Source: Haloterrigena salina JCM 13891
GTDB lineage: Archaea; Halobacteriota; Halobacteria; Halobacteriales; Natrialbaceae
NCBI RefSeq assembly: GCF_000337495.1
Contig: NZ_AOIS01000036.1
Location: 1-64,000, forward strand
Length of the DNA stretch: 64,000 bases
Direction of reading: 5' to 3'
Below the pieces are notes generated by a model. The model saw nothing but the letters and a program-made list of their open reading frames with translations, had not been told where the DNA came from and did no database searches. The position numbers and the translations under genes are program-made. This document shows positions 15,646 to 19,457 of this stretch, piece by piece (within the stretch, counting starts at the first letter, position 1; every line of letters starts with the position of its first letter).

Positions 15646-16014
15646 CCGGCCGTTCGTCGCCGATCCGCAGCGGCGCGGCTACGTCCGCCCGAACGACGCC
15701 GCGCCGAGGGCGGGCGTTTGGTTATATAGACGAATGGGCGCTAATAGGTCGATATAATCGAAATGTTCGTCTCGGTTCGAATCAGGGGGGCGAATTCTAC
15801 CCAACTGTCAACCGATGAGCGCGCGCCAGCGAGTCTCGGTCGTCGTCAGCTCGCGATCGGGGTCGATTCGAGACGATCGCGGTCTCGTTCGCTCTCGATC
15901 GAAGTATGATAATAGGAGGTAATAGGAGAAGTAAGGCCGTTGGTGTCTTGCGGTTTTCGACCCTCGTCGGATATTGTGGTTTGTGATGACCTGACATTCG
16001 AGAGTCGAAACAGC

Positions 16015-16030
16015 GGTATCTTTATATACC
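16015..16030 (+). promoter_or_regulatory. leuA promoter: TATA box within an inverted repeat
   Basis: TTTATATA (16021-16028) is a strong TATA box, about 26 bases before a predicted RNA start near 16050 and six bases more to ATG 16056. It is embedded in the dyad GGTAT (16015-16019), six bases, ATACC (16026-16030), so a regulator could occupy the same site as TBP. Confidence 0.65.
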
Positions 16031-16055
16031 TCGTCGCCCGTCGAATTCAGATACA

Positions 16056-17295
16056 ATGTCTTCACAAGACGATTCGTCCTCTGACACCAGTCAGGGGGGT
16101 CGAGTTCTTCCAGGGCACGTTAGATTCCACTGACGAAATAGAGTCAGCACGTGTCTTCGATACGACCCTCCGGGACGGCGAACAGTCGCCCGGAACTTCG
16201 TTCTCCTACGACGACAAACGGCAGATCGCGTCCATCCTGGACGACATGGGGACCCACGTCATCGAGGCGGGCTTCCCGGTCAACTCGGACGCGGAATTCG
16301 AAGCCGTTCGCGATATCGCGTCGTCGACGCAAACGACGACCTGCGGGCTAGCCCGCGTCGTCGATGCGGACATCGAGGCCGCACTCGATTCGGGTGTCGA
16401 GATGGTGCACACGTTCGTCAGCACCAGCGACGTCCAGATCGAGGACTCGATGCACGCGACGCGAGACGAAGTCGTCGAACGCGCAGTCGAATCGGTCGAG
16501 CGCGTCACCGAGACGGGAACTACCTGCATGTTCTCGCCGATGGACGCGACCCGAACTGACGAGCAGTTCCTGCTCGAGATCATCGAGGCCGTCAGCGAAG
16601 CCGGCGTCGACTGGATCAACATTCCGGACACCTGCGGCGTCGCCACGCCGACGCGGTTCCGGGCCATGATCGAGAAGGTCTGTGCCCACACCGACGCTCG
16701 GATCGACGTCCACACCCACGACGACTTCGGGCTGGCCACCGCTAACGCGCTGGCCGGCATCGAAGCGGGGGCCGATCAGGCGCAGGTCTCGGTCAACTCC
16801 ATCGGCGAGCGCGCGGGCAACGCCGCCTACGAGGAGTTCGTGATGGCCGTCGAGTCCCTGTATCAGACCGATACAGGGATCGACACGACGCGCATCGCCG
16901 AGCTCTCGAACGTCGTCGAGGAGAAAAGCGGGATGGCGACGCCGGGCAACAAGCCCGTCGTCGGCGACAACGCATTCTCCCACGAGAGCGGCATCCACGC
17001 CGCCGGCGTCATCGAGAACTCGGACACCTTCGAGCCCGGCGTCATGACCCCGGAGATGGTCGGCGCCGAACGCCGCCTGATCCTGGGGAAACACACCGGC
17101 ACCCACTCGGTCCGCGAGCGCCTGGCCGAACTGGGCTTCGAGCCCACCGACGACCAGGTCACGGCGGTAACTCGCCGCGTCAAGGACTTCGGGGCCGAGA
17201 AGCGCCGCGTCACCGTCGACGACTTGGAGCGCTTCGCCGAAGAGGCTGGCATCGAACGCCAGTCCGAAGAGGAGGAGGAGGAGGTGCGCGTCTAA
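16056..17295 (+). CDS. leuA: 2-isopropylmalate synthase family (LeuA), with an apparent one-base frame break near the start
   Basis: Condenses acetyl-CoA with 2-oxoisovalerate, the first leucine step; (R)-citramalate synthase is the alternative reading. The body shows the HMGL-like TIM barrel: RVFDTTLRDGEQSPG (metal/substrate loop), VHTHDDFGLATANALAG with the HxH metal site, and a late HESGIHAAGV. The promoter-proximal ATG 16056 opens MSSQDDSSSDTSQG but then hits a stop. The enzyme frame resumes as VEFFQGTLDSTDE one base out, at a run of six G (16094-16099); five G would join them into 412 residues. The protein ends soon after subdomain II, without the C-terminal leucine-feedback domain of classical LeuA. 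It lies ahead of ilvBNC-leuCD. Confidence 0.85.
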
Positions 17296-17390: not shown

Positions 17391-17400
17391 GGGTTATGTC
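17391..17400 (+). promoter_or_regulatory. TATA-like element of the ilvB leader ORF
   Basis: GGGTTATGTC has a TTATG core centred near 17396. Twenty-six to 28 bases downstream gives an RNA start at about 17423, directly at ATG 17426 of the 31-codon ORF, consistent with a leaderless transcript. CTTGC/GCAAG (17366 and 17385) forms a short dyad just upstream. Confidence 0.5.
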
Positions 17401-17425
17401 ACTCGAGGGTCCTACGAAAACGATA

Positions 17426-17521
17426 ATGACGGTCCGCGCTTCACTGTCGGCTCGCAGTCCGGTCGACACCAGCGCGCTCGCTCCGATTCGTATTGTAGGG
17501 GCGCCTACGCCCCGCATCTAG
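17426..17521 (+). CDS. Candidate 31-residue leader peptide upstream of ilvB
   Basis: The ATG at 17426 opens 31 codons, beginning MTVRASLSARSPVDTSALAP and ending with IRIVGAPTPRI before TAG. Branched-chain residues (Ile, Val, Leu) make up about nine of 31, clustered as IRIV near the end. The last codons overlap two mutually exclusive hairpins (17495-17513). It is preceded by a TATA-like element at leaderless distance and lies 121 bases before ilvB. A cis-acting leader peptide that senses branched-chain supply is an inference. A 115-codon frame (17299-17646) across the same DNA has poor composition and is not preferred. Confidence 0.5.
   Translation: MTVRASLSARSPVDTSALAPIRIVGAPTPRI
17495..17513 (+). 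promoter_or_regulatory. Two competing hairpins at the end of the leader ORF
   Basis: Structure A pairs GTAGG (17495-17499) with CCTAC (17504-17508). Structure B pairs GGGGCG (17498-17503) with CGCCCC (17508-17513). They share bases, so only one can form at a time. This is a geometry typical of RNA switches, but it could also be coincidental in GC-rich DNA. Confidence 0.4.
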
Positions 17522-17630
17522 TACCTCGTAGCTTCGGACCCGAATTCGTCGCACCGTTCTCACAGCGACAGCAAATCCAGCAGATGACAGCATACCCGAC
17601 ATCCACAGCGATCGACAGCCGCCACGCGGC

Positions 17631-17636
17631 GGGAGG
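17631..17636 (+). promoter_or_regulatory. Strong Shine-Dalgarno site of ilvB
   Basis: GGGAGGTAAT (17631-17640) places GGAGGT seven bases before ATG 17643. Strong Shine-Dalgarno sites are uncommon in haloarchaea, and this one fits an internal gene on a leadered transcript, supporting ATG 17643 as the start. Confidence 0.8.
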
Positions 17637-17642
17637 TAATCG

Positions 17643-19457
17643 ATGAGCGAACGCGCAGCAAAGGTCACACCGGCAGACGAGGAGGAACAGGACGACGACC
17701 AGATCACCGACAGCGCGGCTCCGGACGCGGCCCAGGAGATCGACGCCGAGTCGGAGACGACGCCGGAGCCCGTCACCAGCGGTGCCGAAGCGGTCGTCCG
17801 CGCGCTAGAAAACGCGGGCGTCGAACACGCCTTCGGCGTGCAGGGCGGGGCGATCATGCCCGTCTACGACGCCCTCTACGACTCGGAGATCTACCACGTG
17901 ACGATGGCCCACGAGCAGGGCGCGGCCCACGCGGCCGACGCCTACGGCATCGTCTCGGGGAAGCCGGGGATCTGCCTGGCGACCTCCGGGCCGGGCGCGA
18001 CCAACCTCGTCACGGGGCTGGCCGACGCCGACATGGACTCGGATCCGATGATGGCCCTGACGGGCCAGGTGCCGACGGAGCTCGTCGGCAACGACGCCTT
18101 CCAGGAGACCGATACGACGGGCGTCACGACGCCGGTCACGAAGGATAACACCTTCTCGAGCCACTCGGACACCGTCGGCAGCGACGTCAGCGAGGCGTTC
18201 GCCCTCGCCAGCGAGGGCCGACCGGGCCCGACGCTAGTCGACCTGCCCAAGGACGTGACCAACGGCGAGACCGACCGGGAGCCCGACGCGCCGTCGGTGC
18301 CCGAGACCTACGAGGTCCAGGAGCGAGCCGACGAGGAGATCGTCGCGGCCGCGGCCGAACGCATCGAGAACTCGAACAGGCCCGCCATGCTGCTGGGCGG
18401 CGGCGTCATCAAGGGCGAGGCCAGCGAGGCCTGCCGCGAGTTCGCCATCGAACACGAGATTCCGGTCATCACCACGATGCCCGGCATCGGTGCCTTCCCC
18501 GAGGATCACGAGCTCTCGTTGGAGATGGCGGGGATGCACGGCACCGGCTACGCCAACATGGCGATCACCCACTGCGACACGCTGATCGGGATCGGGACGC
18601 GGTTCGACGACCGCCTGACCGGCGGCATCGAGACCTTCGCGCCCGACGCGGAGCTCATCCACGTCGACATCGACCCCGCGGAGATCTCGAAGAACATTCA
18701 CGCGGACTACCCGCTGATCGGCGACGCCGCGACCGTCGTCGAACAGCTGGCCGAGGCGGTCGACGAGTCGCCCGAGGCCACGAAATGGCGCGCGCAGTGC
18801 CAGCAGTGGAAGTCCGACTACTCGATGGCCTACGACGCGCCCGAGGACGAGCCGCTCCAGCCGGAGTTCGTCGTCGAAGCCTTAGACGAGGCGACCGACG
18901 ACGACACCATCGTGACGACCGGCGTCGGCCAACACCAGATGTGGGCCTGCCAGTACTGGACCTACACCGAGCCCCGAACGTGGGTCTCGAGTCACGGACT
19001 CGGGACGATGGGCTACGGGCTGCCGGCGGCGATCGGCGCCCGAATCGCGGCCGACGACGATCAGGACGTCGTCTGTTTCGACGGCGACGGCTCGTTCCTG
19101 ATGACGCTGCAGGGTCTCTCGGTCGCGGTCCGCGAGAACCTGGACATCACGGTCGCCGTGCTCAACAACGAGTACATCGGGATGGTCCGACAGTGGCAGG
19201 ACGCCTTCTTCGAGGGCCGCCACTCCGCGTCGGACTACCACTGGATGCCCGAGTTCGACAAGCTCGCCGAGGCCTTCGGCGCGGCCGGCTTCCGCATCGA
19301 CGACTACGACGAGGTCGCCGACACCATCGAGGAGGCGCTTTCCTACGACGGCCCCTCGGTGATCGACGTCCACATCGATCCCGAGGCCAACGTCTTCCCG
19401 ATGGTTCCGAGCGGCGGCGACAACGGACAGTTCGCACTGACGGAGGATCAGCTATGA
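17643..19457 (+). CDS. ilvB: Acetolactate synthase, catalytic (large) subunit
   Basis: Joins two pyruvates, or pyruvate and 2-oxobutyrate, into acetohydroxy acids with ThDP, FAD and Mg2+. 604 residues, with an acidic 45-residue N-terminal extension typical of halophiles. The catalytic glutamate is E91 in MAHEQGAAHAADAYG. The flavin/central domain follows, then the ThDP motif GDGSFLMTLQ...VLNNEYIGMVRQW near residues 480-520. Start chosen on the strong ribosome-binding site. It overlaps ilvN by four bases (ATGA), so the two subunits are made in coupled fashion. Confidence 0.96.
   Translation: MSERAAKVTPADEEEQDDDQITDSAAPDAAQEIDAESETTPEPVTSGAEAVVRALENAGVEHAFGVQGGAIMPVYDALYDSEIYHVTMAHEQGAAHAADAYGIVSGKPGICLATSGPGATNLVTGLADADMDSDPMMALTGQVPTELVGNDAFQETDTTGVTTPVTKDNTFSSHSDTVGSDVSEAFALASEGRPGPTLVDLPKDVTNGETDREPDAPSVPETYEVQERADEEIVAAAAERIENSNRPAMLLGGGVIKGEASEACREFAIEHEIPVITTMPGIGAFPEDHELSLEMAGMHGTGYANMAITHCDTLIGIGTRFDDRLTGGIETFAPDAELIHVDIDPAEISKNIHADYPLIGDAATVVEQLAEAVDESPEATKWRAQCQQWKSDYSMAYDAPEDEPLQPEFVVEALDEATDDDTIVTTGVGQHQMWACQYWTYTEPRTWVSSHGLGTMGYGLPAAIGARIAADDDQDVVCFDGDGSFLMTLQGLSVAVRENLDITVAVLNNEYIGMVRQWQDAFFEGRHSASDYHWMPEFDKLAEAFGAAGFRIDDYDEVADTIEEALSYDGPSVIDVHIDPEANVFPMVPSGGDNGQFALTEDQL

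Follow-up and report, generated by a model that had tools for sequence, protein, structure and literature searches.

A short, putatively leaderless ORF (ORF1) lies upstream of ilvB in the window, the 64,000-nt stretch of Haloterrigena salina JCM 13891 DNA analyzed here. We consider it probable that ORF1 encodes an amino-acid-sensing leader peptide and that the site is a ribosome-mediated attenuator (Table 1). One mark of such an attenuator was found at this site: a short leader ORF, rich near its end in codons matching the downstream gene's amino acids, set beside an RNA hairpin. With somewhat less confidence, we favor the view that it represents a general haloarchaeal form of ribosome-mediated attenuation by leaderless leader peptides, with Ile and Val codons before ilvB, Val codons before valS, Phe codons before pheS, and perhaps Trp codons before trpS, together with an out-of-frame relay between leuA and ilvB and a leuA gene that seems to need a +1 frameshift.

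Table 1. Features of the leuA-ilvB region, in window coordinates
Feature	Coordinates	Strand	Remarks
leuA, 2-isopropylmalate synthase family	15940..17295	+	Pfam HMGL-like, HCS_D2; mechanical ORF, start uncertain; stop 17293-17295
orfX, relay ORF, 115 codons	17299..17646	+	Starts next to the leuA stop and reaches the ilvB ATG (ATGA overlap; TGA 17644-17646); contains ORF1 in another frame
TATA-like box TTAT	17394..17397	+	29-32 nt 5' of the ORF1 ATG; putative internal promoter
ORF1, putative leaderless leader peptide	17426..17521	+	31 codons plus TAG
Control codons ATT CGT ATT GTA	17486..17497	+	Ile-Arg-Ile-Val
Alternative hairpin GTAGG/CCTAC	17495..17508	+	Arms 17495-17499 and 17504-17508; not conserved
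Hairpin GGGGCG-CCTA-CGCCCC	17498..17513	+	Arms 17498-17503 and 17508-17513; abuts the control codons
ORF2, last ATG-started part of orfX	17584..17646	+	Separate ATGA-linked ORF in some relatives
GGAGGT, Shine-Dalgarno-like	17632..17637	+	5' of ilvB, within orfX/ORF2
ilvB, acetolactate synthase large subunit	17643..19457	+	TIGR00118 above cut-off

Leader ORF1 upstream of ilvB

The first-pass annotation had described a 31-codon ORF ending 121 nt before ilvB, a TATA-like element at leaderless distance from its start, and a Shine-Dalgarno site in front of ilvB, and each of these agreed with the coordinates in Table 1. ORF1 encodes MTVRASLSARSPVDTSALAPIRIVGAPTPRI followed by a stop, and its 3' end reads ATT CGT ATT GTA GGG GCG CCT ACG CCC CGC ATC TAG; a second, longer in-frame ATG lies at 17396, within the TTAT box. 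The spacing of box and start is kept in relatives. Using a permissive pattern, we found a T/A box 24 to 34 nt 5' of an in-frame ATG in 154 of 166 distinct leaders, whereas by the same pattern 12 lacked the combination; in the first set of leaders the boxes were aligned by eye. Most relatives also carry comparable G-rich motifs 5' of ilvB. No T-box or known riboswitch was detected in the window, where tRNA alone reached an Rfam gathering score.

The first set consisted of 79 loci found with IlvB, from which L060 (too little upstream DNA) and L076, L077, and L079 (bacterial) were dropped. The Ile-Val codons, the ORF1 stop, and the hairpin recurred in all 75 usable relatives, and in these and in the window ORF1 ends in the same place with I-V-G-(A/V)-(x)-stop or a slightly longer version of it. 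From 32 leaders we built a covariance model of the 47-nt core, which at E ≤ 0.01 found matches in 108 of 116 Halobacteria genomes, representing 43 of 46 genera. We examined 112 of the 120 matches, including two in the window's own genome; 100 were located 5' of ilvB and 12 were located 5' of valS. Inspection of the DNA upstream of ilvB in the eight genomes without a match revealed a leader in seven, with the same core in six (L271-L274, L276, and L277) and an I-R-V leader with a different stem (GGGCC/GGCCC) in L275. No leader was found 5' of ilvB in L278, where leuA directly overlaps ilvB. When the model was run on a sample from across the phylum, 18 of 147 genomes gave a match (E ≤ 0.001), all of them from the window's own order. 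Judged by these comparisons, the leader ORF is real and is conserved in nearly all of the haloarchaea examined.

Control codons and the adjacent hairpin

ORF1 had been called rich in Ile, Val, and Leu. Over its whole length the content of these residues is not high, and only the last codons are enriched in them. We counted codons in 166 distinct ilvB leaders from 175 loci, which share ancestry, so that the counts are not independent draws. The combined Ile/Leu/Val frequency was 5 to 22% at codons −16 to −6 and 45, 37, 23, 68, 37, 100, and 100% at codons −5 to +1. Codon 0 was Ile in 165 of the 166 leaders (ATT in 143, ATC in 21, and ATA in 1) and Leu in the other. Codon 1 was GTA in every leader, a count to be read with the search patterns in mind: the first-set pattern demanded AT at codon 0 and GGGG while allowing other letters in GTA, and the second-set search itself demanded GTAGGGG. 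The codons used are rare ones. ATT made up 239 of 286 Ile codons near the hairpin (84%) versus 6.0% in 147 downstream ORFs, and GTA was used in 100% of leaders at codon 1 but made up 0.5% of Val codons in the downstream ORFs. At codons −2 and −1, ATT accounted for 50 of 54 and 40 of 55 Ile codons, respectively; since these codons lie outside the hairpin, base pairing does not explain the choice of ATT. Substitutions in the N-terminal part of ORF1 were spread about evenly over codon positions (0.30/0.34/0.36 per position), and among the final 10 ORF1 codons preceding the core, third positions were the least variable (0.21). We rejected protein-level selection on the N-terminal part of ORF1 or on the orfX linker, given these near-even values and a third-position minimum that is unlike the result of amino acid selection.

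The hairpin stem letters were present in all 76 first-set leaders, in which the 5' half, GTAGGGG, was invariant. The GGGGC/GCCCC hairpin sits around or just 5' of the ORF1 stop: measured from codon 0 through the last base of the stop, the distance was 15 or 18 nt in 67 of 76 ORFs, whose stops therefore fall within the loop or border it, and 30 nt in the other 9, including that of the window, where the stop lies 5 nt past the stem. Covariation across 32 ilvB leaders was no better than in shuffles, a comparison that is uninformative because the inner 5' arm is invariant; two outer pairs were unpaired in 14 and 9 of these leaders, and the outer 3' letters were not kept. Individual hairpins scored better than their shuffles (P ≤ 0.05) in 42 of 76 ilvB leaders, 4 of 12 valS leaders, and 2 of 13 pheS leaders, a modest outcome from a test that required the stop in the loop and so missed the window's own hairpin.

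Two mutually exclusive hairpins had been proposed, and both can be drawn in the window, but the CCTAC needed for the competing stem was found only in the window and in L003 among 76 leaders. The comparison with other haloarchaeal ilvB leaders that the first-pass annotation had called for thus upheld the ORF, its start spacing, the Ile/Val codons, and one hairpin but not the second hairpin. Across the 76 leaders, no mutually exclusive structures of the terminator/antiterminator kind were conserved, and a single conserved hairpin was left. A run of five T residues occurred in only 3 of 166 leaders, and for want of a U-tract we rejected an intrinsic terminator. Sequestration of the ilvB Shine-Dalgarno sequence by the 3' arm of the hairpin was also set aside, as it predicts the wrong sign for induction by starvation. 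Separately, we observed that the stretch 1 to 14 nt 3' of the hairpin has almost no G and is C and T rich in the 166 ilvB leaders.

Leaders before synthetase genes and the path from leuA to ilvB

The second model match in the window's genome (32.5 bits) lies 5' of valS, where the ORF reads MFRPVAGTADAFDGPREAVFVGAS followed by a stop. The valS leaders, 12 in 12 genomes, end in VFVGA, AFVGA, RVGA, or similar residues, with no Ile at the control positions; the identity of the gene was confirmed, and NCBIfam models named it valine--tRNA ligase, with scores that fell short of the cut-offs because only part of the sequence was available to them. We found the exact stem GGGGCNNNNTAGCCCC at 17 places in 13 genomes, all of them preceding either ilvB (9) or valS (8), and a reversed control pattern occurred 14 times. 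Upstream of pheS, 13 of 24 genomes (for example, L217, L219, L220, and L237) carry a small ORF in which GFGFFF is followed by one or two final residues, in most cases with a T-rich box ~30 nt upstream. Stems of 5 to 6 pairs with the stop in the loop were clear in 6 of these 13 (GCCCGG/CCGGGC, GCCGCC/GGCGGC, CGACGC/GCGTCG, and others) and weak in the remainder. A possible pairing of a downstream GAAACCG with the Phe codons, noticed by eye, was discarded, as it is broken where the GGN codon differs. In the sequences compared, the control codons track the downstream gene (Ile/Val for ilvB, Val for valS, and Phe for pheS), since valS leaders have Val without Ile and pheS leaders have Phe.

Other synthetase genes gave less. 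Six of 20 leuS loci, those with a match starting at the gene start, were examined; five of the six genomes had no leuS leader, and the sixth, L284, was ambiguous (MFLRVCVLISGL, then a stop). A small ORF with Trp codons (MQSA..W-R-W-R..) and a T-rich box ~30 nt upstream preceded trpS at 4 of 30 loci (L244-L247); the signal is weak, and the ORF is possibly a Trp leader. In Hfx. volcanii, small ORFs have been reported in long 5' leaders with mapped transcript starts for pheS (HVO_2948) and trpS (HVO_A0127) (PMC4983044), and the published pheS ORF may be the same element as the Phe-rich GFGFFF ORF. In its accessible text, that differential RNA-seq (dRNA-seq) study gives no peptide sequences for the ORFs before pheS and trpS and no attenuation reading of them, and ilvB is not among the 16 uORFs it assigns to leaders of 150 to 250 nt.

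Between leuA and ilvB, ribosomes could follow a path of their own. The frame of the leuA stop relative to orfX varies (47, 17, and 12 of 76 loci in the three frames), and at almost every locus an ATG in the orfX frame lies a few nucleotides from that stop. At loci with a change of frame, the usual arrangement is a chain of two ATGA junctions, the first joining orfX to ORF2 and the second joining ORF2 to ilvB; an ATGA joins the end of ORF2 to the ilvB start at 74 of 76 loci. ORF2 has no Shine-Dalgarno sequence of its own and begins ~50 to 75 nt 3' of the ORF1 stop. An ATGA-linked ORF2 also precedes valS in 11 of 12 cases, and pheS leaders mostly lack one. Stops and starts within coupling distance, the arrangement expected for termination-reinitiation, were evolutionarily kept in 162 of 175 loci (151 direct and 11 two-step), and 13 had neither form by the rule used; shuffled interiors gave 6.5% direct and 0.9% two-step relays (about 7% together). 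No Pfam or NCBIfam family was found for orfX and no NCBIfam family for ORF1, and the orfX linker, with 0.37/0.33/0.29 substitutions per codon position, has no protein signature. We read orfX as a ribosome path rather than a protein. A −1 frameshift from ORF1 into orfX at GTAGGGG was considered as the origin of the open phase-2 frame. It was dropped on two grounds: at nearly all loci that frame starts at its own ATG next to the end of leuA, and the core leaves neither of the remaining frames open, one being closed by a TAG and the other by the ORF1 stop. Such a shift is possible as an extra event. ATGA gene pairs in Hfx. volcanii are coupled by termination-reinitiation (PMC6728339), and, as described there, they resemble the relay in their ATGA junctions and in having a Shine-Dalgarno-like motif in the upstream ORF. 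They differ in that the upstream partner here is a sequence-variable relay ORF holding an out-of-frame leader ORF.

For leuA itself, a strong TATA-like box accompanies a leaderless ATG that lies out of frame with LeuA by +1 at all 73 loci where such an ATG was found (76 examined, among L001-L078), and in the window the region concerned is 16056-16133. The lengths differ by multiples of 3, the LeuA frame at many loci has no upstream ATG, GTG, or TTG, and in most the conserved GTTCTTC (CTT-C) could plausibly serve as the shift site. From the sequence, leuA seems to need a +1 frameshift. The start problem has been noted before for HVO_1510, for which slippage from the out-of-frame ATG or a CTG start was suggested (PMC8305020). 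In L278, the genome without a leader, LeuA carries the allosteric domain PF08502, which the window's LeuA lacks; on the basis of this one genome, loss of leucine feedback may be linked to gain of the leaders.

Proposed mechanism and alternatives

Given the size of the ribosome footprint, the 5' arm of the hairpin would lie in or at the mRNA channel of a ribosome whose A site is occupied by any of codons −2 to +1. Because rare Ile and Val codons sit at just this position, stalling would be predicted to keep the hairpin open and completion of ORF1 to let it form. Since starvation should raise the expression of biosynthetic and synthetase genes, hairpin formation would be the off state. We hypothesize that a leaderless ribosome trails RNA polymerase along ORF1. 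When Ile- and Val-tRNAs are plentiful, it would reach the stop at the hairpin and leave, the GGGGC/GCCCC hairpin would fold, the spacer would be left bare, and ilvB expression would fall; when they are scarce, the ribosome would stall on the rare ATT and GTA codons and cover the 5' arm, the hairpin would not fold, and ilvB would be expressed. Our preferred output is premature termination through lost transcription-translation coupling, because such coupling has been reported in haloarchaea (PMC8576121) and archaeal polarity has been ascribed to FttA (PMC12548453). On transcripts from leuA, ribosomes would reinitiate at the orfX ATG, pass the attenuator out of frame, and hand over to ilvB at the ATGA. 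Sequence comparison, the source of all the evidence here, shows the ORF, its codons and the preference for rare ones, the hairpin, the gene-specific codons, and the relay frame; promoter use, translation, stalling, the sign of regulation, and the output step are what we infer from the arrangement. The first-pass annotation had seen the logic of translational attenuation here. The leader-peptide part of that reading held, with the ORF, the codons, and one hairpin kept and gene-specific codons before valS and pheS; its translational output step was not established, since the Shine-Dalgarno-bearing end of the leader belongs to the termination-reinitiation relay. The overlapping relay ORF, its ATGA junction with ilvB, and the valS and pheS copies are additions to that annotation.

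The main rival is purely translational control, in which the leader ribosome or the hairpin would gate access to ORF2, and then to ilvB by termination-reinitiation, with no early termination. It would account for the missing terminator-like U-tract and for an ATGA-linked ORF2, with a Shine-Dalgarno-like motif inside, before both ilvB and valS. We nevertheless think it unlikely: the distance from the ORF1 stop to ORF2, which must do without its own Shine-Dalgarno sequence, is beyond the coupling range given for Hfx. volcanii (PMC12548453), pheS leaders mostly have no ORF2, and stalling in ORF1 should reduce, not increase, the flow to ORF2. Much less probable is that a regulator uses the palindrome GTAGGGGC..GCCCCTAC as its DNA operator, with ORF1 an accident. 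An invariant GTAGGGG half and the confinement of the exact stem to ilvB and valS would suit an operator, but its outer 3' letters are not kept, the upstream codons stay Ile through ATT, ATC, and ATA and become Val before valS, and pheS has the same architecture in other letters.

Similarly improbable is a nascent-chain arrest peptide, with a ..IVGA C terminus that stalls the ribosome in response to a metabolite. The near-invariant IVG(A/V) end before ilvB is what it predicts, but the invariant hairpin arm likewise encodes VGA, Ile is gone before valS, the pheS ORFs end in GFGFFF, and the choice of rare codons points to codons. We give still less credence to the idea that orfX, lying between leuA and ilvB, simply encodes an ordinary small protein and that ORF1 is a by-product of its sequence: its frame is kept at 162 of 175 loci, yet it has no family match and its linker no third-position signature, the constraint at codon 0 is in the ORF1 frame (the orfX frame there reads Cys, Arg, or Ser), and valS copies without a leuA neighbor keep ORF1 and the hairpin.

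In Escherichia coli, attenuators of pheST and ilvB (ivbL) place Phe- and branched-chain-specific leader peptides before these same genes, with Shine-Dalgarno-led leader translation and a terminator/antiterminator switch. The haloarchaeal leaders share the gene-specific peptides with these systems, which differ in being bacterial, Shine-Dalgarno led, and dependent on terminator/antiterminator structures. Closest to the present case appear to be the actinobacterial ilvB leader peptides, in which a short ORF with Ile/Val/Leu codons overlaps a hairpin 5' of ilvB and synthetase genes also have leaders (PMC1262725). The hairpin described there is followed by poly-U, whereas the haloarchaeal leaders have no U-tract, leaderless initiation, an archaeal host, and an overlapping relay ORF; in its accessible text, the same paper mentions pheST attenuation and cites Streptomyces leader codon substitutions that were without effect. 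The ilvBNC operon of Corynebacterium glutamicum, of the same type, is also under leader control, there by a three-hairpin attenuator of several exclusive hairpins (PMC11857589), in contrast with the single conserved hairpin before haloarchaeal ilvB. The haloarchaeal leaders would work like bacterial leader-peptide attenuation, without exclusive structures or a U-tract.

The first-pass annotation knew of no such system in haloarchaea, and we likewise found no archaeal case of leader-peptide attenuation in full-text searches of a literature that includes few subscription papers. The words attenuation, leader peptide, and polarity are absent from a review of archaeal coupling (PMC8116511), and the accessible text of the haloarchaeal coupling paper covers attenuation only from older general work (PMC8576121). 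The question whether translating a leader can govern gene expression in Archaea bears on transcription-translation coupling, and the conserved gene-specific leaders before ilvB, valS, and pheS occur in genetically tractable organisms. If our reading is true, these leaders would represent leader-peptide attenuation in Archaea, with a one-hairpin output lacking a U-tract, unlike the bacterial textbook form.
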